Shown: one piece after another, positions 27,740 through 46,930 of the stretch
Layout of the letters: the number at the start of each line of letters is the position of its first letter
Numbering within the stretch: position 1 is the first letter of the stretch
Assembly (NCBI RefSeq): GCF_000151665.1
Contig: NW_013171816.1
Location: 1,622,204-1,686,203, forward strand
DNA from: Blastocystis hominis
Taxonomy: Eukaryota > Sar > Bigyra > Opalinata > Blastocystidae
Direction: 5' to 3'
DNA: 64,000 nt
Notes under the pieces: generated by a model
Told to the model about the DNA's origin: nothing
Database searches by the model: none
The model's input: the letters and a program-made list of their open reading frames with translations, nothing else
Translations under genes and position numbers: made by a program

Positions 27740-27813
27740 TCCCAACTATTAATTAAAATTAATATTGAAAAGATTGTAGTTGTTGCCGCCCAATTTGCCT
27801 CCAATTTTGATTA

Positions 27814-27821
27814 AACAAACA
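27814..27821 (-). terminator. TGTTTGTT motif, copy A
   Basis: Exact motif, in frame with CysLeuPhe codons if read through; predicted cleavage lies about 4 nt upstream. Confidence 0.8.
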
Positions 27822-27825
27822 GATA

Positions 27826-29092
27826 CACCAAGTATCAGGCTTTTCACTAAGCGTAATATTCAATATGCGGTTCACACAGATTCTACGTTCTCGGGGTCTG
27901 GAAAATTTTACAGGATGTAAATGAGGACAAACCTCACGATCTGGCATTTTTCCATGATTACAATCCTTTATGACGTTTGGTGTCAAGCAGTTCATGATAA
28001 ATGGAACTGCATTTTCCAAAAACACATAATGTTTATACATCACGGATTCCAATTCCAAAAAGGTAGTGAGATTGGATTTTGGAAAATAGAAAAAGTCACC
28101 CCATCCACGTCGGAGTTTTGAGGAATTAAAATTGCAAAGATTGTGTAGAGTAGGATTTGATTCTATTTCTGTCACAGCATCCAAAAATGCCCTCGAAAAT
28201 AAAACCTTATTTCTATTGTGTATGTTATTCCACATCCATTTCTCTTCTATAAACCAAGTATTACTCCTTTCACTCATAGCTTTGTTGTGATCTTCTTTAC
28301 CCAATAAAGTCGGTTGTAAACAACTATCATCATTTGCTTCGAAGTATCCAGCATATGTATAACCAGCTTCAGGTGGAAACAAATCAATTGCTACTCTCAT
28401 TGAATGATATGCATAATAGCCTCTCTCGGGGAGTTCATTCGTAAAGACTTTGTTCTCTGTATCCAAAGTTGGTCCGATTAACAACAAATCAAAATCATAT
28501 GGATATTTATCAGCAAATAATCTATAAATTCCTTGTCTTATAAACGCAGCATACGTGTAATTCCTAAAATGGAAGTTGATTACAAATAGATAGATTTCTC
28601 GGGTTTTATAATCACGCATATCTGCATGACTTACACGTTTGTGATTACGAAATCTAGTAAGAAACGAATCCGAAGTTAAATTCCTTGGCGGAATAGTTGG
28701 TAACTTTTGAGGAATTTTCACTTCAAAATTATTATCAGGATTAATTGATCGAGATAATTTTGTGGTTGGAGTCACGATCGATGTACTAGGTATTGAAGTA
28801 TTTGTCAAGCTTTCATTTGACATTTCTATAGTGTTAGAATAACTCTTGTTAGAATCATTATCACTTAAATTGTTCATTTCTTTACGAGTTTTGACTCGTG
28901 TTGTAATTCTTGATGATTCTTTTATAATTAGGTTCTTTGGACATTCTTTACCATAGCACAATACAGTAAATGACGAAATATTCCTATTATTAACAACATT
29001 ATAGTTTCTTACTTCCCATATCCTTGATGTTTTGAGTATATTATATCCAATACATAGATAGCTATTATAATCACATTAATGAGTGCAATCAT
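27826..29092 (-). CDS. type II glycosyltransferase-like protein, copy A
   Basis: A 29-nt intron (28,984-29,012) joins MIALINVIIIAIYVLDI, a signal anchor, to NISSFTVLCYGKECPK. A Ser/Thr/Asn-rich stem follows, then a lumenal domain with IYLFVINFHFRNY, YPYDFDLLLIGP, YAGYFEANDDSCL (a likely metal-binding NDD, GT-A style) and repeated Cys-His-rich ends (CNHGKMPDREVCPHLHP). About 380 residues. No stop codon precedes TGTTTGTT; the frame's TGG TGT just before it would give TGA after cleavage behind TG. Sequence match with copy B stops right after this motif, so downstream codons are not part of the gene. Sugar donor and acceptor unknown. Confidence 0.7.
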
Positions 29093-30074: not shown

Positions 30075-33000
30075 ATGATATTACGATTTTCTATTGGAAG
30101 CCGTGAAATAAAGTATATCATTCAACCGGCAACTACCATAGAAAGTATAAAGCAGGAACTATATGTAATCAAAATGTAGTTGGTTAATACTTGTAGAAGG
30201 ACTTGAGCTTGGATACCCGTGACCTATACTTAATAAAAGACAGCGTCATATTAGTTGATACTAGTACATTAGAATCTCAATGTAAAAATGGGGATTTCAT
30301 ATCTGTATGCAAAGTATTTTCATATAGAATAAAATGGGAAAACATTCAAAGGGAATTGTACTATTACACAAATCTCTCCTATAACAAACTCATTTGCTTT
30401 ATTTTAACAGAATACTCAGTTCCTATAAGCGATTGGGGGAAATATCGATTGAAAAGACAAGGTCAGTATATTTCTCTGGAAGCCTTCGTCCCTTTTGAAG
30501 GTATTTCAGATGAGATTGAAGTAGTAAATATATATCGTAGGTGGTTTGGTTGTACGCAGTCAAGATATAGAGAATACGTATCCTTCAAATACAAAAGGCG
30601 ATCCTATCGGTACTGAAATATGATATGGATTGAGAAATATAGACAGTGAGTGTGAAAACGGAGAAGAGAATGCAGAATCAGATCAATATGAAGAAAATGC
30701 AAATGGATCGTAAAACATGAATGGTTCAATATTAACCAGTAGTGGAAATGTAGGTAGGAATCAATATATTAGAGTTTTCAATGGAAATAATGAGGAATAT
30801 GTACAAACAGTACCCTTTACACAATCAGTTACAGTGAATCAACTTGTAAAGAATGTGATAGGATGTGAAGATAAAAATGTATTCGTGACAAAGAAAGGAA
30901 GCTCTGTAGTCTTTGATGGTGAGATCACGACGTCTACAGATGTGATAAGTATGTCTAAATGATATTTATCCAGTAAATAGTGTACATGCACGCAGATGAC
31001 CCAACAATCTGCTTGCAAATTTATGACAAGTCTAACACTGTTTCCTCCAGCTCCCCTATCTCTCTAGAGTTCCTTGATAACGTGACTGGAATAGAAATAC
31101 TCGGTCTGTTTGGATATAGCAGAGAGGGTTCGCAACTTTGTGTAGAAAACGGAAAAGCACTGAGTTTAGATGATTCTCTGAAGTTTCAGGGTGTCAAGGA
31201 TAAAGACATACTTACAAGTATTACATTGATTGAGCGTAACACGGTAGTTAAAAGAATTCCTAAAATATCGCAGAAATGGGTCATTCTGAATGATATGGAT
31301 CGGAAAAGCAAAGTGAGGTATGAATTCGATAAATCAAAAATGGTCAGGGATTATCTATCTGATTACTGGATTGTAGTAGTTATGCTGACTTTATACTGAG
31401 TAGAACAATTATAGTGTCAAGTTGAGCAGAGAAACTGAGAATACTATAATAATAATTAATACACAAGACATGACGCCAGTCACCATGGATACAACGATGT
31501 CGTCGCTATCTTCCATCGATACCATTGAGCTAGAGAGTATGAATGAATAGCATATATGAAAAATAGTAAAGAAGAAAAGTACGGATAGTACTCAAAATAC
31601 GTCATCTATATCATCTGATACACATAACACTGTTAAAATTCCAACATCATGTGATGGATAGGACATCCAGTGTTTAAGTCATACGGAGAACATTGAGCAG
31701 AAAGACACTACTCCTTTTATTGATCAAATGGAAAACAATACAGTATCTACAGTACTCGATAATTCGTTAATTGCTTTAGATGATATAGAAACTGAAAAGG
31801 AATCAAAGGAGTATGAGCATGATGGAGTCATTATTTCTATTATGGGTGAAAATAGTTCATTTCATGTAGAAATCGAACCTAGTTGTTTTGAAAAGCATGA
31901 TTTTGAATTAATGGAACATAGAGGCCAAAGAAGTTATGAAAATGACGAATCGATTTTGGTTTACGAAGTTAATACACATAGATATGTTTCTGAGATTTTC
32001 GATTCCTTAAAAGTGAATTATGACCAACCTATTGCCAAGAGTTTTTACTCCCTTCAATCTGCTTTGACTGATGGATGTGATTATGCTCATATGGGAGATA
32101 TGATTAGTTTCAGTGGATTGCCTCACTTGCAGAAAGAAGAAACAACATTCATTCTTCCACTAATCAATCATGATGAAGCTCTAACTCATAATATCATTCC
32201 TGAAGCAATCTATTTCCACTGCATTTCTGGAGTGAAGAATGCTACGATTGGCATTTTGTCTCCTCTTGATAAGAATAAGGTTATCACTGTATTATGCAGA
32301 TCCAATGTGCTCATTTTCCATTCCACAGAGGAATATGTTCGACTGATAAAGGCAATACGTTCTGATAGTGAGGATTGGGAGTATATCGAATCGAAAGCCT
32401 ATCGATATGTGGAAACAATGAAAGAAGATCCTCCGTTTATCAGAGAAACAAATCAAACCCAAATTCGAAATCAAATCGTGGAGGATGTGATTCAATACAA
32501 CATTCCAGTGGTAATTGAGGGAGTGACTTCGTCAGGCAAAACATTCACAGTGGAGCAATACTGTCGACGTTCTCTCGTTCCCTTTGTGAGATACAACTTC
32601 AGTCCTTCGTCCACAACTGAGGAATTGCTTGGAGATATGGTGATTACGAACGATGATACAGAAAAGATCAAATTCCAGGACGGAGCTTTCACGGATGCAT
32701 TCATTCATGGCAAACTGCTATTGATGGATGAAATGTCTCTGGCTCCTCCTTCTGTGGTTCAGAGTGTGTTATCGTATTTGTTTGGCAAGAAGATTCTTCA
32801 TGAAGGCAAGGATGGAAGTGAAGAGCGCGTAATGCATCGAGATTTCCGCATTATTGCCACTCAGAATCCTGCCGGAAGTTCTTACAAACGAAGCAATCTG
32901 TCTTCTGCAATTCGCGATTGTTTCCGATTTATCACTCACGATTCAACGAAACAGAAATACTTCCCAATGATTGACAGAGAGGAAAGATTGGACATCATAA

Positions 33001-36000
33001 CGGCAATATTTGGAGGAAATGTAGAAATTGGAAGAAGAGTGTGTGAGATTCATGATCGAGCTGATAATCGAAAGAATGTGTCTGGAAGAGAGATTGATAA
33101 AGGAAAGGATTACACACTTCGAGATTGTAGTCGTACAAAATGGATGATGGAAGCACTGATGGATAGCAAGATAAATGAAAGCAAAGCATTGGATCGAGCT
33201 TTACAAATCGCGTATAATGAAGATTTGAGAACTACTCCAGTATTCAAAGCGGATATTACTTTCAGCAAAGCTGCATTAGACAAGGAATGTTGGAAGGATG
33301 TGTATGATCGAGTTCGACTAGGATTGGAATCTGGATGTCATGTTCTATTGATTGGAGAATCGGAATATGTATCTCGAAAGTATTGTCGAGCAATAATGGA
33401 AATAATGCAGAATGAAGGAACATCCTGTGAAGTAATTCATTGCAGTTCGACTTCTTCAACAGAAAGTGTGATTGGAAGCTATTCGCTCGAGAAAGATGAT
33501 GATGAAGGCAAACCAGTTCCTCGTTTCTGTCCTTCTCCATTGCTTACAGCGATTGAAATTGGATGTATTTGTGTTCTTCAATCGTTGCATTTGATGAAAT
33601 CGAATGTGATCGAGCGATTGAATTCTGTGTTGGAATTATCACCTGCAGATGGCCATCATCATGTAGTTCGATTTGATGAATGTCGAGAAAGACCGGAATT
33701 CGAAATGAGTCCCGAATTCCGTGTAATCGCAACAACGTCTGAGAAAGGATTGCTGGCATTTTCTCCTGCCTTGAGAAACCGATTTTTGGAAGTATTTGTG
33801 AGTCATGAAGATGCAAAGCGATTTGAAAACTCTCCCAAACTGGGCAAAATAACAAGAGATGAAATTGATTTCACGATTCATGATTATTCTCAAACAATCG
33901 ACTGGTTTCAGCAGAAAGAACTCCATCGAATGGCCTGTTTTGCAAGAGAAGTGTGTGGATACGAATTGGATGAATCTCTGATTGAAATGCTCGCTAGACA
34001 ACAACCTTTTTTTGAACTGCAATCCCTTCGAAGCCATCGGACTGAAGCTTCAAGATTGTTCTATTGTATTTGCAAAAACAAGGCTGTGACATTGTGTGGA
34101 CCTAGAGGCAGTGGAAAGTCCTATGCAGTTCGCGAAATCATCAATAAGCTCTATATCAGAAGCTATCAAGTGTTCAGTGTATCTGGAGAAACCGAGTTTT
34201 CCACTCTGATGGGAAGTATGGATATGAATGGCGATTTCCGAGCTGGAAGATTGCTCCAAGCTGTAGAAAGTGGAGGATTGGTGATATTCGAAAATGCTGA
34301 AAACATGTCAGCAGAATTACTGGAAATACTTGATACTGTTTGTGATCCTTTCACTGATGAGCTCACTTATCCAGCCTCTATCAATCATTCAATTCATCCT
34401 TCATTCCGAGCTTTGTTCGTATTCACAACACGTCGAGTGAATTCGTTGCCTTCTCTTCCTGCTTATTTCGATATTTGTGAAATGAGTCCAATCCAGAGTG
34501 CTGAAGCGAAAGAGTTGATGAATAGTGAAATCTGCAAACGATTATGTGATCATATTGATAGTGGCGAGATTCCATTGAATGAAGTATTCACTCTGGATAA
34601 GATTTGTTTCAATACTTCTCATCCAATTTGGATTGTTGCAGCATTGTTTGCAGATCGAATGGATCGCAAAGAATTACTTCACAGGATAATAGAAAAATGG
34701 AAAAAGACAGCTGACACTGAAGTGAAAGAAGAATTGGAAATGGCAAGTGTGGTTTTGTCAACTCCAACAGTAACAGCCATAAAATCCCCAACGAATGAAT
34801 CTAGTTCATTGCTTCAACGCGGACCTCTTCAAACAACAGTTCCAATTGAATACTCATTATTGAAAGGTGTTGATATGGCTGTGTGGGCAGCATTATTTAC
34901 TCTTTCTATTTCCAATTTCAAGCAAACTCATCTTCCTGTGTTATTGGTTGGTGATTCAGATATTACTTTTGAAGTCACTCATTTGCTGTTTCCCAATGCT
35001 GCTCATATGGAAATGTCTCGTTCAATGGAAATGTCTCACACATTTGGTGAGATTTCTGTTTGTCGTAAAGAAGACATTCAATACATTCTGAGACAAACAT
35101 CGATCCAAAATGTTGATGGAACTCCAATGGAAACATATCGAGAGTATCTGAAGAGGTTATTGTATGGCATGGTAGATAATGAATCATTGCTCATGATGCG
35201 TCCTGGTCCGATTCTCCGTTCGATAATGAGTAACAATTCAATCGTATTGAACAATATCAATCTGTTAAATGATCGATTGCTTCCTCGATTATATTCATTG
35301 TTGTTTAGTTTGGATTCGCAAGAGTTTAGTCTATTTGAGGATTATTCCCAAATTCAACCAGAGATTCTTGGTGAATCTGTGAATGCGATTGTAACATGCG
35401 AAGATCCAGATTATGGAAGAGTTGCAAAGAAAGACCAATTCATTCAAGTGTTTTGTCAACCCTATTCTGAATTAGAAAGGGCGAAATATGAGTTTGAAAG
35501 TCGAGATGACTATCCTTTGCACATTCTACGAAAGTCAGATATGCTGAGAAATGAATTTGTGAATGCTGAGAAAGTGATTCCATTCTATCTTCGATTCCTT
35601 CTATCTGATTTGGCATCTCGAGAAAATCTGATTCAAATGGGACTGATGAATAAGGATTTGAAGGAAGTGAGTGAATTCCTTCAATCAAGCAATGAAGATG
35701 ATGCAATGATAGAGAATTTGAAGCAAACTCTATCATTCCTATTTTCAAATGATGTTATTGGTGATATAGAATCCAGCCTTCAATCCAAGCATCCATTACT
35801 TTCTACAAAGACCACAATTCAGTTATTGGCATCCATCGTATTGGCAGATCGAAGTCATCTTCCTCTGATTCTAGAAGGAGATCCTGGAGTAGGCAAAACT
35901 GTTTCTGCTGAGAATTATTTCGTAAAGGAGGATCTTGTGTATAAGCGAATCAATTTTTCGAATACCATAACGATTGATAGTTTGTTTGGATGTTATACGA

Positions 36001-39000
36001 TTGTGAATGGAGCATTACAATTCAGAGATGGAAGTATTACAGAACTATTGAAAAGAGGAGATCATTCAGATCAACGAATCGCATTGCTATTAGATGAAGT
36101 GAATTTGGCTCCATCAGATGTGCTTGAAGTATTACTCACTCTGATTCGTTGTTATGTGAATCACGATCCATTTCAAGTTCCAGGAGGCGATTTGATCGAT
36201 ATTCCATCGGATATGCTGATCATTTGCTGTATGAATCCAGCATCCATGTCAGCAAATCGCAGCACATTGCCTCGTCAATTCTACAAGTATTGTATTTATC
36301 ATCGTGATTTGAAATTCACACTGAATGAATTGTTCCTCACAGCATTAAATATCTTAAAAAATGTGTTAAAAATCGAAAATCAATCAAAAAGAAGCCAGAT
36401 TCTTGAGTTATTTGAACACTCTTACAACTCCTATCAAAAGACATCGATTCCATTCTCACTTCGAGATGTATTGAAAGTGGATCAGATTGTGAATAATGGA
36501 AATAACCTATCATTGGAAACTGCTTTATGGTTGGTGTTTGCTTGCCGTTATGAAGAATCGGAGAGAAAAGAAACCGAGAAGTTATTGAAGCTGGAAGATA
36601 CATTGAAAGTTGATATTATCAAACAAGACGACCAATGTGTTGTTCGTGGTTATTGGGACATTGAAACACAACAAATGTATTCGGGATCTTTCAAAGAGTA
36701 TTGTTTTACTTCAACAGAGAAAGTGACGATATTCAAGTTGAGTCTTGCTTTACAATCCAAACGAGCTATTTTGGTTTATGGTTCTTCTCCCTCTGGCAAA
36801 TCGTATTGTATTTCGAATCTGGCATTGATGTGGGATAAACAATGCACTTCGGTGTTTTTGAATCACGAAAGCTCTCCAGATGTGTTCATCGGTCGAAGTA
36901 CTCTTGGAATTGATGAAAATGGGAATGAATGTATCAAATTCCGAGAAGGTCCGCTGTTGAAAGCAATGGAGAGTGGAAATTGGATTGTAATCGAAGATAT
37001 TCATTTGGCAAACAATGATGTGATGGAATCGCTGAATTCTCTGTGTGAAGAAAACCCAACACTGAAGGTATTAGCAGGAAATGAAGAAATAACGTATTCA
37101 ATGCGACCGAAAAAGGGAGAGAGAAGGATTCACGAAGCATTCCGAATCTTCTTTACAATATCGGACAATACATTGAAGCACTTTACTGGACCATTCTTGA
37201 GTCGTTGTGTGATCGTGTATTGTGATCCAATATCGACTCAAGCAAATGTTCAAGAAATCTGTCAAATCAATGGATCAATACACGATCCTTGTAATTTTGG
37301 AATTAAAGAATCGAAAACATTCCGACGATGTATTCGAGTGATAAACAGTAAAGAAAAAGATGTATTCTTGTATGAATTTGGATATACACCAAAGAAGTAT
37401 GCTCTTGTATCAGAAATTAAAGTTCCCCATTCGATAGATTATGAACTATCAGAATTCTTGGATAGTGTTATCAATGTGTCAGAAAATGGAAAAATGACTC
37501 GAATGATTGCCATAATGGAGAAGATTTGTTCCAGTACAAAGAGTGGATTCGTAATAGCAGATACGATAGATTTACTGAGAAGCTGCTTGAAGTATTTCGA
37601 GAATCATTTTATCTATTATGTAATGGATTGTGCAATCAAAGTACTCGAAATGGAAAACCTTCAGAATTGTATGATGAAAAGGCAAGAAGGCGAGAATGCA
37701 GGTGTCCTTCGTCGTTGGTATTTGATACCAAATATTGATCCAATAAAGGATGCACATTTTTTGACTCAACCATGTAACAAAAACAATTTCATGTATATTT
37801 TTACAATCCCTTCAACAAATTCATATATTACTTTAGAATTGATATTTATTTGTGATGTAAAACAGAAACTTAAGGAATTCATGAAGGAAACTGAACTCTA
37901 TGAATTTGCAGTTGAGGTATTTGCAATGTTGGATACAAGTGATCGAAGTTATTTGATAGATAGAGTTATGAAGAATATGATTGAAATCAAGAAGAAATTC
38001 ATCTTTATTATTGAATGCAAGAAAAGCGTATTAAATAAGGCGAGATTTGGTAAATGGAAGACTTTTAAGCAAACTGTAACAAAAATACAAAACCTAATAG
38101 AAACCTTCCCAACTCAAATAAGGAATTCAGCAGCAGCTAACTCTATACTTAATATAGTTAACAATACAAATGCGGATATTATTAAGCGCGTTATGGCTGA
38201 AACCAATATTGAAACTAATGATGATGAGGAAAGTATGCAAAATAGATATGCCATTGCAGAGTGTTGCTGTGGAACTTTGAAGAAATTTAAGAAACAAATA
38301 AAAGAAGCATTTAGAGATGGGATGATCGATTATGAGACATTCAGATCAATGAATTTTACTGATGATGTACAATATGAATTAACGAGTTATAAGTCCTTGG
38401 TAAACTGTTACATTATGAAGGCTTCTCATTTTATTTATAAATTGAAATCATTCAGAAACTATCCATTCATTTTGAGCGAATATTCTGACGAATTATTAAA
38501 AGTAAAATTGAAAGTATCCGATATTTACAGGAATTTTTCACATTGGAACGTTCTTTTTGATTACCTATTGACTATGCTAAATGTGTTGTTGAAAAAAGAA
38601 ATGGAACGATTACAATGGGATCGTCTTCTTATAGATTATAGCGATTATCCTTTTGTGACTCCAACGAATGTTACTCAAGAAGAATTTGAAACAGCTATTG
38701 AAATGCTGTTCGACAAGGATTGGTATGAGTCCTATTGGAATGAGGTGAAAAATAAAGTAGCAAATCGGTCGGAGGCACTCGATCAATTGAAAAATCATTT
38801 GATTGATAAATTGTTTACGTCTACAGAAATTCAAGATATTGAATTAATATCTCCAAGAATAATATATGCAATAGATAATGCCAAGGAAGTTGATCGCTTT
38901 ACATATAGACAAATATCTCAAGTTGATGTTTGGTGGAAATGCGATCTTCCTCCTGTTGTGCTGCCAGGAACGATTATTCCTAGTGATATCTTGCAAATGG

Positions 39001-42000
39001 AGCGATCACTTCGCTATTCAGAGAATTCTGCTAATTCTATTTTGGAATTGGTGTGGGCTGCTGATTGCCCAATGAGTTTGGAGGAAAAACTGGAAATACT
39101 CTGTCCTCGCAAGCGAACTCTTCAAGGAAATGTAGTATTTGATATGATAAAGGTACCAAGTCTAAGCGGAGTGATGCGGCAAGTAATACAAAATGTGAAG
39201 AATATTGATGATCTTGTATCACAAGTGATAATGAGAGCTCAAGCAAATTGCGAAGCAGAGAAAAATACTATGCAAATAGAATGTCGAGATATAGAAAGAA
39301 AATTGGAGGAGAAAGAGAAGCAATTCTATTCATATAGCAGTAAGTTGGAAAAAGAAAAAAGACGGTTGATTGCGAAGTATGTAATTATAGCAAAAAAGAG
39401 AACTGAGCAAAAGGGATATACTGAAGATTTTCAAAAGCGCAACGAGAATACCATAAGAATGTTTAGCTTTATGCATGCTGTGAATAATCTTAGTTCTAAT
39501 GAAATAAGGAATTGTTTAAATAACGAGCCTTCGCAACAGCATAGTATAAAAAACCCAACTAGCAAGAAGTATAACCCATTTGACTTCCAAATGGTTTTCA
39601 TTCCACTGAATCACATATTAGTAAAATACCGTGTTGTTGCTACTATTTCATTATTTGCTCCAAAAGGATTACAGAGTTACTTGAAGTCTGATACATTTCA
39701 ATTGAGCGGTGATACTTTAAGGCAATATTGTGTGTCAGTTAGTGATGGCTATTTACTGGTACTACCATTAGCACCATTCAAATGGACTGTGAAGATTCGA
39801 ATAAATACAAAGAATACTGCGAATACTGGTGGTCTTTCTCTTGTGTACTGTGCAAAAAAAGTCAATCAACTTAAGGAGTATATCGGAACTAAGAAATCTC
39901 TTTTGGGAAAAAATCAATACGTATATGACTGGGATATGTATTTTGTTCTGAACTGCTTACAAGTTATGATTCGTTTGATTAAAAGGTTTTCATTAAAGTA
40001 TAAAATACCTGTAACTGAAAAAACTCTTTATCGCTATAATAGGTTACATCATTTAAAACAAGTTGATAAATATATGCCTGAGTCTATTTTTTTCTATGAT
40101 AATATTCCAAATAATTGTGAAATCTTCTTACCACTCCAGAATCATTACTATTACTATGCCATCAAATGTACTGAGATTACTTCCTCCAAGGATATTTTGC
40201 CTATTGACAAATTATGTGTAAACAATATCAAATCATCCTGGACTGTGAATGACTTTATACAATATGGAGATAAATTGGAACCGATTGTGAGTATTGATGC
40301 AATTGCTGATTGTGATGTTTTTCGGTTTAATCAACAGTACGATTCTTTGAAGATATTAGAACAACAAAAGAATAAACTAAAACAGGAATTAGACGACAAA
40401 CAGATAATGTTGAATAAAAAAACCTTGGAATATGAATCGATACCACATTACTTCTTTCCACACGAAGTTGAAAATGAACAGAAGGATGTAATCGGCACAA
40501 CACTCAATGATGTGATTGTGGTATATTACGATGGAGTAAAAGCGTTATTTGGTCTTCCCAAGAACAATACTTACATACTCCCAGATAGTTATGAAGGAAT
40601 CGATGGCTATCAGATTGCATTGCCTTATTTTACTACAAGTGAAGAAGTTGACTTGGAAATACAAGGACATCATTGCAGTATTAGTAAATCTTCGACTCAA
40701 TTTGTTATTTTGATGAATGATAACGAGGTTGGAGAAAAGAAACTGGAATTAACTGCAACGGCTTATCTGAAGGGTACACGAGAAGTGCTTGCTACTGTAC
40801 AGTTTTATTTGAGCTATATGAGGAAACAAATGATCAATTACATGATGACATCAGTTCCTTGCACATATTGCAATTATTCTCGATACAATTATAGCAAAAT
40901 ATATGCAACATCGTTTCCTATTGATATTGATGTCTTTTGTAACGGTGAACATAAACAATTTCATTGTGACAAGGGAAAAGAAACCAGAATAGTTGAATAT
41001 CCTGAAATAACACTCTTTTCTTTTGTATTACCTATGAAAAACTGTGCAAGTAGTAAGCGATTCACTTGGAATGAAAAAGGATTATCTATACTAAGTAACG
41101 AGCACAGCAACAACCCAATCGAGTTCATAACGAAAACTACTGTAAATTATGAGAAATCAATAGTCAGTCTTCAATCGAGGCAACTCACTCAATTTTTGTC
41201 CACTTTTGCCAATTTATCTTTAGTAATAGTATCAGCGCCTGAACACAAGCGTAAAGAAATTCTGCATTACTTATACGGATGTATGAATGACGTGATTCTA
41301 CCCTCCATAAAAAAGGCTGCGCAATCTGTACTGAACATGATTTCCCATCGAGGATCTTTGCTGGCATGGAATGCTGTAATAAATCTAGTAAAAGCTGAAG
41401 CAAATGAAGATGAGAATGAAGCGGACAATGCAACAGGTGAAACTGAAAAAGTATACACAATGGATCAGACAGAACCTATTGATACCCATGAATCTAAAGA
41501 AGAGGTCCAGATGGTGAATCTATCTGAAGAAATCAAAAATGAAGTACAAAGTCGGGTAGTTACAATATTGAAAAAGAATTCAGTAGATATGAAGGAAGGT
41601 GAAACAGATGAAACAGAAGATGATACACCAACCCATCTTACAAATGAAAGCCAAGAGGAATTCAAGTCAGTCAATTACAAGTCTTTTCTAAGAATTATGA
41701 ACGATATGAAAATGGATGAGATATTTGAAAGTGTATACAAACGTATAGCTACAGAGAAATATGTAAAGCCTCTAAACACATCAAGCACACTCACCATAGT
41801 AGAATTCAAAGAGAAAGGAAATGGAATGACTCATCCAATTGTGCAGTCAATTGTAAGTGCAGCAGTCAATATTATTCAGAAGTTAAGCCACATGAACTGT
41901 ATGAACAAAAAGCCACATACCAAAATCAATATTATTATCGACACAAATTGCAGTTTGAGAAAAAGTAAACTTCGAATGAGAACCATCGTTTCGTGCATTT

Positions 42001-45000
42001 TCATTACAGTGATGAGAGAGCTCGGAATATCATTCAATTTGTATGTGCTTTGTGGTCGATATAAGGGTGTTCGTATTATGCTCAACAATCGATCTCTTCT
42101 TGATATCATTCTGCTATTATTTGATTTGGAGGAGGTGGTAAAAATGCCATCAACTCCTCTCGACTTGTTAACAATCAAGGGTCAATTCCATGAGAAAGAT
42201 CCAGTATTGATAGTTGGCGACGGATTTAGTGAGCAACTGATGTCATCAAATGAAGAAGTGAAAACAGTGTTTCGGGTTTATTTGAAATTATTCTTGCTAT
42301 GTATAAAAGGTACAGAGGATGAAGCATTGAGTATTTCCAATCAGATATTATTAGAGAAATCATTGTTGGCCAATTTCCATAATAATTTTATATTGATAGA
42401 GAAAGTCAGTGATGTCTCAAGTTTATCAATAGAAACCCTAGCAAGTCTGTTTTATGACAAGCAAGAGTTGGCAATGAATACTACTTTGAATGTTTCTACT
42501 TCAGAAGATGGGGAATGTGACATTCATGAAGACCTGAATATGGAATTCAAAGTAGACAAATCACTTACAATAATCGATAAAATAACCAAGGCGAAGCCAG
42601 TTAAAATGTTGGAAGTTACGGATAATGAGTTATTGAATTACTCAAATTCTACTTCTACTCGCAGTGTGATATTGAAAACATTGAATGCACAGATTCAAGA
42701 GGAGAATCTATTTGAAGCAATGAATACCTCTCTGTTCATACCCAATAAATCTACGGCACACGTCGCATCTACCTCCGGATCATCGATTCTTATAGCACAG
42801 TATATCAAGTATATAGTCAATAAGAAAGGAGATGGCAAGTTTTTCAAGAAGCTTGGTAGTGGTAAGATTCGTAGTTACAATGCAAGTGTTGTGATTGATT
42901 GCTCTTCGGTTGCATTTAGTGAAACAAACCGAGCGCATTCCTTGATCACAGTCTTTTCAATCCTTCGAAATCTGAGTAATATGCAACTACCTTGTATTGA
43001 TTTGTGGGTGGCTTCTTCTCAAATCATCCGGATAGCAACAGGCATTCCATCCCTGGATTTGTGGGAAAACAATATTGTGAGTGTACTGTATCACAGTTTG
43101 TTATCTCCTTGCCAAAATACTTGCTTGCCCGATTGCATTCGCTATGCTTGTAGTACTTGCAATGCCCGTTCTTTCCAATCCGTAATGATGGTACTAACCA
43201 ATGGTGTGCTATGCAATGATTCACGACTGGAAATCAACTCAATTGTGAATGAATGTGAAATGACCTATCTGGGAATTGGTCTTGGGTTGTATCTGTGTGG
43301 ATTCAACAACTTGCTCCCAACAATGATCTGGAATTCTAATCCTACTCGACTCTCCGAAACACTGCTAAATCTGAGCGAAGAATCAATGGCTAGTGATTCG
43401 AGTGCAATCCCCGAACAACCTATCGATGCAATGATGCTGAACGAAAATATCGAAAGGTCAAATATCGAAACTATCCGTAAGATTTGTGACATTCCCAGTA
43501 TTTATGAAACTACCTTGAGTCAAATTCGCTTCGTTGATGAAACAGATGGACAAGATGCAATTAGCAAAATAGATGATATCAACGACAGCAAATATGATCT
43601 TGGAGTCGATGGAGCATTCGGCCATTATTCGATATTGTTTATTATTCTCTATTTGTGTCGTGGAGAGAAAACAAAAACTGGAAAAGTGATTGATGAATAT
43701 ATCACAGAGGAAGTGTTGAAAAAGGGAAAAGAAGTAAATGGGAAAAGATTTTCTCCTGTTTATAAACTGGGAGACTATCAGGTTAATGGAAAACCGATTG
43801 GAAAAGGATTCAAACTACAATTCGCATATGATTACAAATCGGCTATACGAGAACTTGAGAGTGGGAAATACCGAGTGACATTCATTACGTGCTCTCCTGG
43901 AGATGGTAAGATGGCAAAAGCATGCGATGCAGATGTTTTTGATTATGCTGATGCTTTTGTGAGTTGTGTGCATGACTTTTTCTTGAAGGGAGGGGGCGTC
44001 TTCTGGTTCCTTGAAAACTATCCATACACATATGAAGCCGATTTGTACTTTAAGAAATTTTATGGATTCAAAGCAGTAGATAGTAACCACGAATATATCG
44101 AAGGAGGGGAAATAATGATTCGAGTCAAAGATGAAAAACCGCGGGCAAGCCATTTCATATCAATAGGAGGAAAGGCGACAGACTTTTCAAAGTTATCTCG
44201 TTTAGATTACGGAATTCTACGCATATTTGAAGGAAGGACGTTGTGTGCAATGAATGAAAAGAAACTAGAAGAGATCGGATTTTGCACGTTTGCAATGGAA
44301 AGCGAGGGGAATGCCGCGATAATGGTGAGAGAAAGGAAAGAGGAAGAAAAAGAAGGAGGGAGAATGATCATCGATACAGCTGCATCCAAACTCTTTTTGG
44401 AATTTACAGAAGAAGGTACGGCTCGATGGATTAGCAATGCTGCAGTATGGCTATGTAATTCAGAGCAATTTGAAGAAGAAAGAAGAATTGACCCTTCTTT
44501 AACATCTGGTATCAAGATAGAAAAAGGAGTTCACAATGAAAAGAAGCCCATGATAAAACGAAATTTGAAAACAATGAAGCAAATGCTATTTTGTCTGAGT
44601 ATTGTCATGGACACAACAGGATCAATGCGCTTCTATATAAATGCAACAAGAGACAATATAGAAGGAATATTGAATTCCTTAAAGCAAGTGGAGAGTAGTC
44701 TTCATCTGGAAAAAGGAGGAATTGTCGGTCAAGTTGTTCAATACAAAGATTATGCAGACAAAATGACTGGTGAAACCGATGAATATATTACAAATAACTT
44801 TTCTCGACTCAAAAAGAAGCTAGCCACATTTGAAGCAAAGGGTGGCCATTCAGGACAATGCTGCGACTTTAAATTGTGTGAGGATATACAAGGAGGGCTA
44901 ATTCGAGCATTAGAACAAATCACAAAAGAAGAATATAGAGATTATAACCACCTGATCTTGATAGTGGGAGATAATCCTAATCATGGAGAAACTGATTATT

Positions 45001-45263
45001 GTGAATTGACGCAGACTTTGAGTGGAGAGTATATTGATGATTTGTGGTTTGAAATTTATGAGAAAATCAGGCTTATTCACAAGATCAGAGTTATGTTCAT
45101 GCCTGTTAATAGTGATGCTATTTTAGCCACTATGCAAAGAATGCAAATTTTCCTGGGTCAACAAATAGTCAGTAGTACTATGGTTACCACTGAAACTAAT
45201 TTTGCAGACATTGTGACGAGCACTACCCTTACAGAGTATATGGGGTTTCTTGGGATTTCTTAG
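30075..45263 (+). CDS. giant Ubl3-AAA6-VWA protein, midasin-like plan
   Basis: Eight exons predicted; introns at 30165-30196, 30610-30646, 30710-30739, 30949-30980, 31373-31403, 31537-31566 and 31632-31661 remove every in-frame stop and keep phase, giving about 4,988 residues. Domains: ubiquitin-like at about 1-70, 196-262 and 267-344; AAA+ P-loops at 742-749 (GVTSSGKT), 1268-1275 (GPRGSGKS), 1861-1868 (GDPGVGKT) and 2162-2169 (GSSPSGKS); degenerate P-loops near 1020 and 1552; Walker B such as LLDEVN at about 1933; coiled coils near 2975-3050; an acidic block near 3700-3750; VWA-like strands at about 3882 and 4201; and a C-terminal VWA with DTTGS (D4772, T4774, S4776). Midasin/Rea1 shares six AAA units, long linker, acidic segment and VWA, and its VWA binds Ubl domains of partner proteins. 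The fused Ubl domains and single 13.6-kb last exon are unusual. An alternative is separate Ubl and giant genes. Confidence 0.75.
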
Positions 45264-45646
45264 GCCTTGTAATATGATTATGCTTTATTTCCCAATTGTA
45301 TTGATTGTTTTACACGTGTTTATATGCCTTTTTATTACAATAATTAGTGGTGTGGACCTTACAAATCAGAGTATTTGAAACAATCATCTTCTATCACCTT
45401 TATCTATCTTTCCATAAGAGTCGTGTATTTGTATTGTAATACTTATTATATCGTTGAATAATACTTTCTTCTTTTTCATTTTCCATAACCAGGTATATTC
45501 AACTCTTCATGTAGGCTAGTCTATTCCCAATTCTCCTTTTATCAAAACTATTCTTAGGGATTCGGCGATAGACTATTGTAATGCGCTCTTATTATGAAAA
45601 TCATCGTTCGTTCAAATAACGATTGTAATACTGGTATATAGAGATA
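45264..45646. other. intergenic between convergent genes
   Basis: AT-rich 3' flank shared by the giant gene and glycosyltransferase copy B. No exact TGTTTGTT on the + strand; weak matches (TGTTTATA) lie near 45,318. I see no gene. Confidence 0.4.
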
Positions 45647-45651
45647 GATTA

Positions 45652-45659
45652 AACAAACA
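45652..45659 (-). terminator. TGTTTGTT motif, copy B
   Basis: Exact motif at the same codon position as in copy A; homology between copies ends within six bases after it. Confidence 0.8.
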
Positions 45660-45663
45660 GATA

Positions 45664-46930
45664 CACCAAGTATCAGGCCTTTCACTAAGCGTAATATTCA
45701 ATATGCGGTTCACACAGATTCTACGTTCTCGGGATCTGGAAAATTTTACAGGATGTAAATGAGGACAAACCTCACGATCTGGCATTTTTCCATGATTACA
45801 ATCCGTTATGACGTTCGCTTTGAAACAATCCATGATAAATGGAACTGCATTTTCCAAAAACACATAATGTTTATACATCACGGATTCCAATTCCAAAAAG
45901 GTAGTGAGATTGGATTTTGGAAAATAGAAAAAGTCACTCCACCCGTGTCGGAGTTGAGATGAGCCAACTTTGCAAAGATTGTGTAGAGTAGGTTTTGATT
46001 CTATTTCTGATACAGCATTCAGATAAGCCAAAAACATCACTTTATTATTTTTGTTTTTTACAACATTCCATGGCCATTTATTATAGGGTGTCCATGGAAA
46101 CCAAACTTCACTCATAGCTTTGTTGTGATCTTCTTTACCCAATAAAGTCGGTTGTAAACAACTATCATCATTTGCTTCGAAGTATCCAGCATATGTATAA
46201 CCAGCTTCAGGTGGAAACAAATCAATTGCTATTCTCATCGAATGATATGCATAATAACCTTTTGAAAATAACCGATTTCCATAGATCTTTAGTTGTGAGT
46301 TTTCCTTTGGTCCGATTAACAACAAATCAAAATCATATGGATATTTATCAGCAAATAATCTATATATTTCATTTCTTATAAACGAGGCAGCTTTATATTT
46401 GGTATGATGAAAGTTGATTACAAATAGATAGATTTCTCGGGTTTTATAATCACGCATATCTGCATGACTTACACGTTTGTGATTACGAAATCTAGTAAGA
46501 AACGAATCCGAAGTTAAATTCCTTGGCGGAATAGTTGGTAACTTTTGAGGAATTTTCACTTCAAAATTATTATCAGGATTAATTGATCGAGATAATTTTG
46601 TGGTTGGAGTCACGATCGATGTACTAGGTATTGAAGTATTTGTCAAGCTTTCATTTGAGATTTCTATAGTGTTAGAATAACTCTTGTTAGAATCATTATC
46701 ACTTAAATTGTTCATTTCTTTACGAGTTATGACTCGTGTTGTAATTCTTGATGATTCTTTTATAATTAGGTTCTTTGGACATTCTTTACCATAGCACAAT
46801 ATAGTAAATGACGAAATATTCCTATTATTAACAACTTTATAGTTTCTTACTTCCCAGATACTTGATGTTTTGAGTATATTATATCCAATACATAGATAGC
46901 TATTATGACCACATTAATGAGTGTAATCAT
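45664..46930 (-). CDS. type II glycosyltransferase-like protein, copy B
   Basis: Same architecture as copy A: MITLINVVIIAIYVLDI anchor, 29-nt intron (46,822-46,850), near-identical stem, FEANDDSC motif and Cys-His-rich end. Differences concentrate in two places: HHTKYKAASFIRNEI plus KENSQLKIYGNRLFSKG, and WFPWTPYNKWPWNVV plus MFLAYLNAV, in place of the copy A residues. The last ~95 codons match again almost fully. The stop again appears to depend on polyadenylation before TGTTTGTT at 45,652-45,659. Sugar specificity unknown; the variable patches may affect acceptor binding. Confidence 0.7.

Follow-up and report, generated by a model that had tools for sequence, protein, structure and literature searches.

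What protein is encoded by a Blastocystis gene whose last exon stays open for 13.6 kb and whose translation recalls midasin? Midasin is an essential ribosome-assembly motor and, in most eukaryotes, the product of a single gene. The locus lies in a 64,000-nucleotide stretch of Blastocystis hominis DNA (hereafter the window, whose numbering is used for all positions that carry no contig name), and a preliminary description had read it as a single protein of ~4,988 residues that joins three ubiquitin-like (Ubl) domains to a midasin-style ring of six AAA modules and a VWA domain. Here we ask whether this is one gene, what its parts resemble, and whether it stands alone in the genome.

A single predicted gene with a 13.6-kb last exon

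We modelled the gene with a splice-aware dynamic program that used dicodon scores from six other copies of the gene (described below), the window copy being excluded from training. So trained, the model placed the start at exactly 30,075 and the stop at 45,263 on the (+) strand, giving a predicted gene (30,075–45,263) of nine exons and ~4,970 codons (exons 30,075–30,164, 30,197–30,536, 30,571–30,609, 30,643–30,709, 30,743–30,948, 30,981–31,378, 31,404–31,536, 31,567–31,631, and 31,671–45,263). Its score was 72.9, whereas 100 dinucleotide-shuffled versions of the DNA upstream averaged 17.2 (sd 3.1) and reached at most 33.4. Where seven introns of 29–37 nt had been counted before, the model predicts eight to nine of 25–40 nt, two of them ambiguous: there are nine introns, or eight if an in-frame 30-nt intron at 31,040–31,069 is unused, and the boundaries of intron 2 are either 30,537–30,570 (score 71.3) or 30,501–30,540. 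We favor the former because it keeps the residues PF.G, which are retained in 6/6 aligned copies, along with further residues retained in most. The single gene of the preliminary description is retained in our model, with a predicted product of 4,966–4,976 aa in place of ~4,988.

The last exon (31,671–45,263, + strand) is free of introns, as had been proposed, and lies in a single open frame of 4,533 codons that spans 31,662–45,263. A long last frame is found in the six other copies that we read as well, being broken into two in the copy on contig C24. For the shorter upstream exons, comparison of the window copy with the copy on C6 over 407 predicted N-terminal codons gave a pS of 0.61 and a pN of 0.34, with 145, 133, and 204 differences at codon positions 1, 2, and 3, respectively; this is the pattern expected for coding sequence. 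The motif TGTTTGTT, which we take to be a poly(A) motif, is absent within 160 nt of the stop codon in the window copy and is present in three of the seven copies. By the sequence tests that we ran, the predicted gene appears to be real, and its putative Ubl-AAA6-VWA product is best filed as midasin-like rather than as midasin.

The ring is collinear with that of midasin

Six AAA modules occupy positions 32,454–37,361 (+), with P-loops near 32,517, 33,351, 34,095, 34,947, 35,874, and 36,777. The ring matches the Pfam family AAA_5 (1.6e-55), its best match among solved structures is midasin (E 8.4e-47), and AAA1–AAA6 of midasin line up with the family ring over 1,507 of 1,681 profile columns in one collinear run (E 1e-64), which bears out the six midasin-style modules originally described. 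Dynein, which is encoded at C18, is absent from the 10 solved-structure sequences that match the ring at E up to 0.1, a set led by midasins; the Pfam family AAA_7 (dynein motor region) does match the large-exon protein (1.5e-14). Walker motifs are nearly invariant across the seven copies, the copy on C38 having one change inside the AAA1 P-loop, outside GKT. In 7/7 copies both Walker A and Walker B are complete in AAA1 and AAA5, Walker A is kept beside a non-standard Walker B in AAA3 and AAA6, and neither motif is left in AAA2 or AAA4. Rea1 has a pattern of complete Walker sites of its own, which differs from AAA1 plus AAA5.

The tail is computed to hold at least two VWA folds

Downstream of the ring lies a linker (37,809–41,951, +); the stretch 37,662–40,361 is 36–77% identical to the other 13 copies. 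No hhalign match was found between the linker and that of midasin, an absence that leaves distant similarity possible, and since the linker has no detectable midasin similarity, any power stroke would be by analogy only.

The tail begins with a segment (41,934–42,581, +) that we take to be VWA-like from its motifs (IIDTNCS, PSTPL, and GDGFS); it shows alpha/beta alternation in the structure model and on its own is unmatched to any solved VWA domain. VWA 2 (42,870–43,361, +) has a VWA fold and gives a weak alignment with the MIDAS domain of midasin (hhalign probability 7%), in which two metal-site positions are changed (DDSKS to DCSSV, and SDG to TNG). Next comes a conserved alpha/beta domain (43,629–44,531, +), perhaps GAT-like, with the motifs GGGVFWFLENYP, GRMIIDTAASKLF, and GTARWISNA, which lies inside the stretch of the tail that is collinear with the Tritrichomonas-type proteins described below. 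VWA 3 (44,577–45,260, +) contains VMDTTGSM, and with its DxTxS motif it matches the VWA_4 type, not midasin. Pfam VWA_4 was found at E up to 1 in 6/6 tails (best 6.6e-10), the window tail scoring 0.0011, below the curated cut-off. A tail structure model of middling quality (pLDDT 60) contains two VWA folds, and the Foldseek rows for this model include the MIDAS domains of MDN1 and Rea1 among many VWA folds. Set against the midasin MIDAS domain, the first VWA-like segment, the conserved domain, and VWA 3 gave hhalign probabilities of 8%, 1%, and 0.2%, respectively, and the tail as a whole gave no significant match to midasin. These models and profiles agree with the earlier placement of VWA in the tail, which is computed to hold at least two such folds. 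A detached piece of 195 codons near the copy on C9 (C9:314482–315057, –) shares 56% identity with the last VWA domain.

The N-terminal region is predicted to carry at least one ubiquitin-like domain

Ubiquitin-like domain 1 is encoded by exon 1 and the start of exon 2 (30,075–30,319, +). A profile of this domain built from six of the seven copies (C8b is missing, its model being without domain 1) matches the ubiquilin UBL at E 1.8e-5, and of its 287 matches at E up to 5, the best 60 consist mostly of SUMO, ubiquitin, and fusion proteins that contain them. The window domain alone matches Rad60-SLD at E 0.08, under the cut-off; in the C8a copy, a later tandem domain matches Rad60-SLD above it (2e-6). 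The rest of the N-terminal region (30,320–31,631, +) diverges fast, its identity to the six other copies, taken over windows of 100 residues, ranging from 11 to 59% (C6 being nearest), and includes an acidic spacer and candidate further beta-grasp domains. As profiles, segments 2, 3, and 5 gave no convincing ubiquitin-like match and segment 4 gave a weak match to YukD (E 0.018–0.073); single-sequence structure prediction of 30,983–31,375 reached a pLDDT of 35. P0122, a Blastocystis sp. Blastoise protein, has two stretches within its first 166 residues that match the ubiquitin family above the cut-off (E 4.7e-8). Because of the matches of the domain 1 profile, C8a, and P0122, we regard an N-terminal Ubl region as real for the family, and at least one such domain as supported for the window protein; of the three domains claimed originally, the first stands and the number three is unproven. 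In the spacer that precedes the large exon, the N-terminal model of the C9 copy has peptide repeats in tandem (GGFTQSS.../GGLAKPK...); none was seen in the window model.

At least 14 copies of the gene are dispersed in the genome

We searched the whole genome (18.7 Mb, 40 contigs) with three parts of the large-exon protein. A ring query of 500 residues found 14 loci at 90–100% identity over its full length, plus one at 32% (C13:713 kb). The same 14 loci were found by a tail query of 762 residues, at 64–100% identity and three of them in part, and by a linker query of 900 residues, at 36–100%. The gene is thus one of at least 14 dispersed copies, with a divergent 15th. Of the 14 copies, 12 keep an uninterrupted open frame that is at least 4,000 codons long, the other two, on C24 and C5, being split, and the open frames of the family alone make up about 1% of the genome. 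The 15th relative (C13:703–717 kb; about 27–32% identity) stops soon after VWA 2 and is without the last tail domains; it is possibly closer to the ancestral plan.

A true midasin is encoded separately, at C13:1.30–1.32 Mb (a 751-codon piece matches solved midasin at E 1.2e-180), which answers a check proposed in the preliminary description, and NLE-type UBL genes lie at C8 and C24 (3/3 matches above the cut-off). The midasin region (C13:1302501–1322500) also contains a very long 3′ open frame of 3,857 codons, so that a giant last exon poor in introns is not confined to the giant-copy family.

No match to the flanks of the window copy was found in the six other copies that we read. Bracketing the window gene is a pair of open frames of 438 and 433 codons (27,759–29,075 and 45,612–46,913, both on the – strand), 90% identical as DNA over 1,386 bp; the pair has no Pfam match above the cut-off, and only distant relatives of it, at 32–38%, were found elsewhere. 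We considered a mobile element or virus as the vehicle of the family and rejected it, the flanking direct repeats holding another gene's pair and the window flanks being unmatched in six copies. Among viral and prokaryotic contigs, searched with two short patterns each, no relative was confirmed.

The copies are mosaics of a uniform ring and divergent arms

Synonymous and nonsynonymous differences (pS and pN) were compared among seven copies: the window, C8a, C8b, C9, C38, C6, and C24 up to its split. Over the 21 pairs, pS per pair was 0.10–0.18 in the ring and 0.28–0.75 in the linker, the homogenized segment being the ring coding region (32,409–37,151, +), where pN per pair was 0.03–0.07. Along the exon, the intervals that cover the ring (exon codons 301–1800) had a median pS of 0.08–0.20 and pN of 0.014–0.072, whereas codons 2101 to 3600 had medians of 0.54–0.77 for pS and 0.21–0.43 for pN, pS further on being 0.40–0.80. 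If the copies had arisen by a single duplication and exchanged nothing since, such a change in pS within one exon would not be expected. Shared runs in the ring are in excess of the chance level (sum of squares 16,085, as against a mean of 3,874 and a maximum of 5,665 in 500 shuffles); five of the 21 pairs, all with C9, were non-significant alone. The C20 copy is a sharp mosaic with respect to the window copy, with a pS of 0–0.20 in the tail and 0.49–0.63 at residues 2,040–2,340. The best reading of these patterns, which come from sequence comparison, is ectopic gene conversion of the motor with the arms left to diverge. Chimeric assembly of single patches is possible, and a uniform ring with drifting arms could reflect relaxed constraint on the arms, with no functional diversification.

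The third-position GC content (GC3) of the ring (0.325–0.342) is slightly higher than that of the linker (0.268–0.341) in 6/7 copies; given so slight a surplus, we rejected GC-biased conversion. Nor was positive selection seen in the closest pair, C8a and C8b, in which dN/dS was below 1 in 37/37 windows, with dS high in some; an arms race is therefore unproven.

Two sequences from contigs outside this genome, P0003 and P0004, show 72–85% identity in the ring versus 49–51% in the linker. The window-family ring is 42–61% identical to them. Median identity between Blastocystis subtypes is 59–61% according to PMC5608401, and constraint on the ring between lineages is thus unexceptional.

Related giant proteins occur in Tritrichomonas and in another Blastocystis

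A search with the tail of P0125, an outlier among the hits (890 candidates scored), returned 19 proteins, five of which are named, four from Tritrichomonas musculus (including M9Y10_005420) and one, TRFO_27550, from T. foetus. We built a Tritrichomonas-type profile from 16 of the 19 (P0125, P0127, P0128, P0130–P0132, and P0134–P0143), dropping P0126, P0129, and P0133, which are 3,300–3,647 aa long with no Pfam domain listed. The ring of this profile aligns with that of the Blastocystis family over 1,547 of 1,681 columns (E 1.6e-89), with a score above that of midasin, and its tail aligns over 981 of 1,204 columns (E 2.4e-54), a significant match, unlike that of the midasin tail; the linker gave no alignment. 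Protein-kinase Pfam domains are listed for 10/16 of these proteins and unlisted for 6/16, and the ubiquitin family is listed for none of the 16; in the Blastocystis large-exon protein and N-terminal models, no match to a protein-kinase domain was found. The four T. musculus proteins share the tail, AAA domains being listed for only one of them.

Midasin-like sequences for comparison (P0007–P0121; 115 hits, some not named midasin) came from the best 120 of 350 matches. Thirteen of 4,000 aa or less were left out, as were 62 of the other 102 from the profile and 30 of the remaining 40 from the ring tree; C24 and P0124 were left out of the family profile and the tree. With midpoint rooting and no outgroup, the ring tree separated Blastocystis-type (14/14, support 1.0), Tritrichomonas-type (16/16, 0.94), and midasin (11/11, 1.0) sequences. 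The midasin group includes the 751-aa piece of Blastocystis midasin, and the giant-copy family falls apart from it.

In Blastocystis sp. Blastoise, P0122 (WA158_005327) and P0006 (WA158_000783) are each predicted as one protein with a long N-terminal region. The order of domains was at first thought to be without a described parallel, a view that does not hold: ring and tail are collinear in the Tritrichomonas-type proteins, and the combination of Ubl, AAA modules, and a VWA-type tail recurs in P0122. The likeness between Blastocystis and Tritrichomonas may stem from an ancient family or from transfer among gut protists.

Discussion

We propose that the window gene belongs to a dispersed Blastocystis family of giant AAA6-VWA mechanoenzymes, midasin-like remodeling motors with diversified docking and client arms, a reading to which we assign a probability of about one half. 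By analogy with Rea1, a likeness supported for the ring only, the ring would hydrolyze ATP and move the linker, and VWA domains of the tail would hold a client that the moving linker pulls. The N-terminal Ubl region might dock each paralogue on a different partner or at a different place, for example on ubiquitin-binding or proteasome-type receptors, much as kinase modules may do in the Tritrichomonas-type relatives. One invariant motor would then serve many diversified adaptor arms, and the outcome would be the remodeling or extraction of protein complexes outside ribosome assembly.

This proposal departs from the idea that midasin had gained ligand-type Ubl domains in cis as a means of self-regulation. 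A ring of midasin type, a tail with VWA folds, and a Ubl domain do occur together in one predicted protein; the view of a lone fusion falls with the finding of at least 14 copies, and a true midasin and separate NLE-type UBL genes lie elsewhere in the genome. A clamp in cis between MIDAS and Ubl is unsupported because it would require both that the MIDAS be intact and that a ligand acid be conserved, and neither is shown; the metal-site positions of VWA 2 are changed (in a weak alignment, hhalign 7%), and the domain order is not unique.

A different role is suggested by the many dispersed copies with fast-diverging N-termini on a constant NTPase, and by the occurrence of related giants in a second group of gut protists, where expansion is unproven. 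In PMC7159879, MoxR-clade AAA proteins and VWA proteins are proposed to act together as threshold systems in bacteria, and the family could likewise be a conflict or self/non-self system resembling the MoxR-vWA ternary systems, in which variable sensors on a common ATPase set a threshold for an effector response. We consider this doubtful, however, as no effector domain was recognized in domain searches, no linked second or third component was identified, and no positive selection was found in the one pair tested (C8a/C8b). At the same tentative level, one may imagine an undescribed family of AAA6-VWA giants spanning two unrelated gut protist groups, its motor kept uniform by conversion in Blastocystis while plug-in N-terminal sensors (Ubl in Blastocystis, kinases in the Tritrichomonas type) and tails diversify, as a counterpart of the MoxR-vWA threshold systems that senses and dismantles targets.

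The copies might instead be extra midasins specialized for ribosome assembly, as a ring collinear with midasin and one tail VWA weakly lining up with the MIDAS domain would allow. We judge this quite improbable, given that true midasin and NLE proteins are encoded separately, that the ring falls outside the midasin group (11/11) holding the Blastocystis midasin piece, that MIDAS residues are altered, and that the set of complete Walker sites differs from the Rea1 pattern.

It is very unlikely that the rings are alike without gene conversion, whether because the copies duplicated recently or because silent sites are constrained. The low ring pN (0.03–0.07 per pair) does speak of strong constraint between copies; but duplication alone should leave pS even, and within one exon median pS climbs from ~0.1 to ~0.7. 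Moreover, with only 42–61% identity to P0003 and P0004, the ring shows no unusual constraint from one lineage to another, and the longest antisense frame in the ring region has 136 codons. Least likely of all is an artefact, either chimeric assembly of repeats or a model that fuses unrelated genes: near-identical 4.7-kb blocks are an assembly hazard, the gene model is a prediction, and frames are split in 2/14 copies, but the other 12 have long single frames, P0003 and P0004 repeat the contrast of ring and linker outside this genome, P0122 and P0006 are each predicted as one chain that includes a long N-terminal region, and the model score far exceeds the shuffle maximum.

If our preferred reading of a mechanoenzyme family is right, a midasin-related ring has become a gene family carrying Ubl modules, with a homogenized motor and diverged arms. 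Such a copy family, missed in the preliminary description, is a more interesting result than a single fusion, and it makes testable the roles of AAA6-VWA motors outside ribosome assembly and the partitioning of one exon between selection and conversion. We came across no account of the family in the open-licence literature searched, which included PMC3129679 and PMC5608401; one table entry in PMC9896827 gives a 'Midasin-like protein' for Blastocystis.

Among known systems, the Tritrichomonas-type proteins are likewise giant, with ring and tail collinear to those of the Blastocystis family, but differ in the kinase domains of 10/16, the lack of a listed ubiquitin family, and an unaligned linker. 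P0122 and P0006 of Blastoise share ring and tail with the window protein but are 24–38% identical to it in the ring, and their N-termini are not confidently aligned. Midasin, too, is a single chain with six AAA modules, a long linker, and a VWA tail; the window protein differs in its N-terminal Ubl region, a linker without detectable similarity, more than one VWA fold, an extra conserved tail domain, altered MIDAS residues (in a weak alignment), many copies, and a separate group in the ring tree. The Rsa4/Ytm1 system also brings Ubl, VWA, and AAA ring together, but there, according to PMC6624252, the UBL binds MIDAS in trans with an essential Glu, whereas the window protein is one chain without a conserved counterpart shown. 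The bacterial MoxR-vWA ternary systems similarly combine a MoxR/midasin-clade ATPase with VWA and variable partners, but, as set out in PMC7159879, they are prokaryotic and made of separate proteins.
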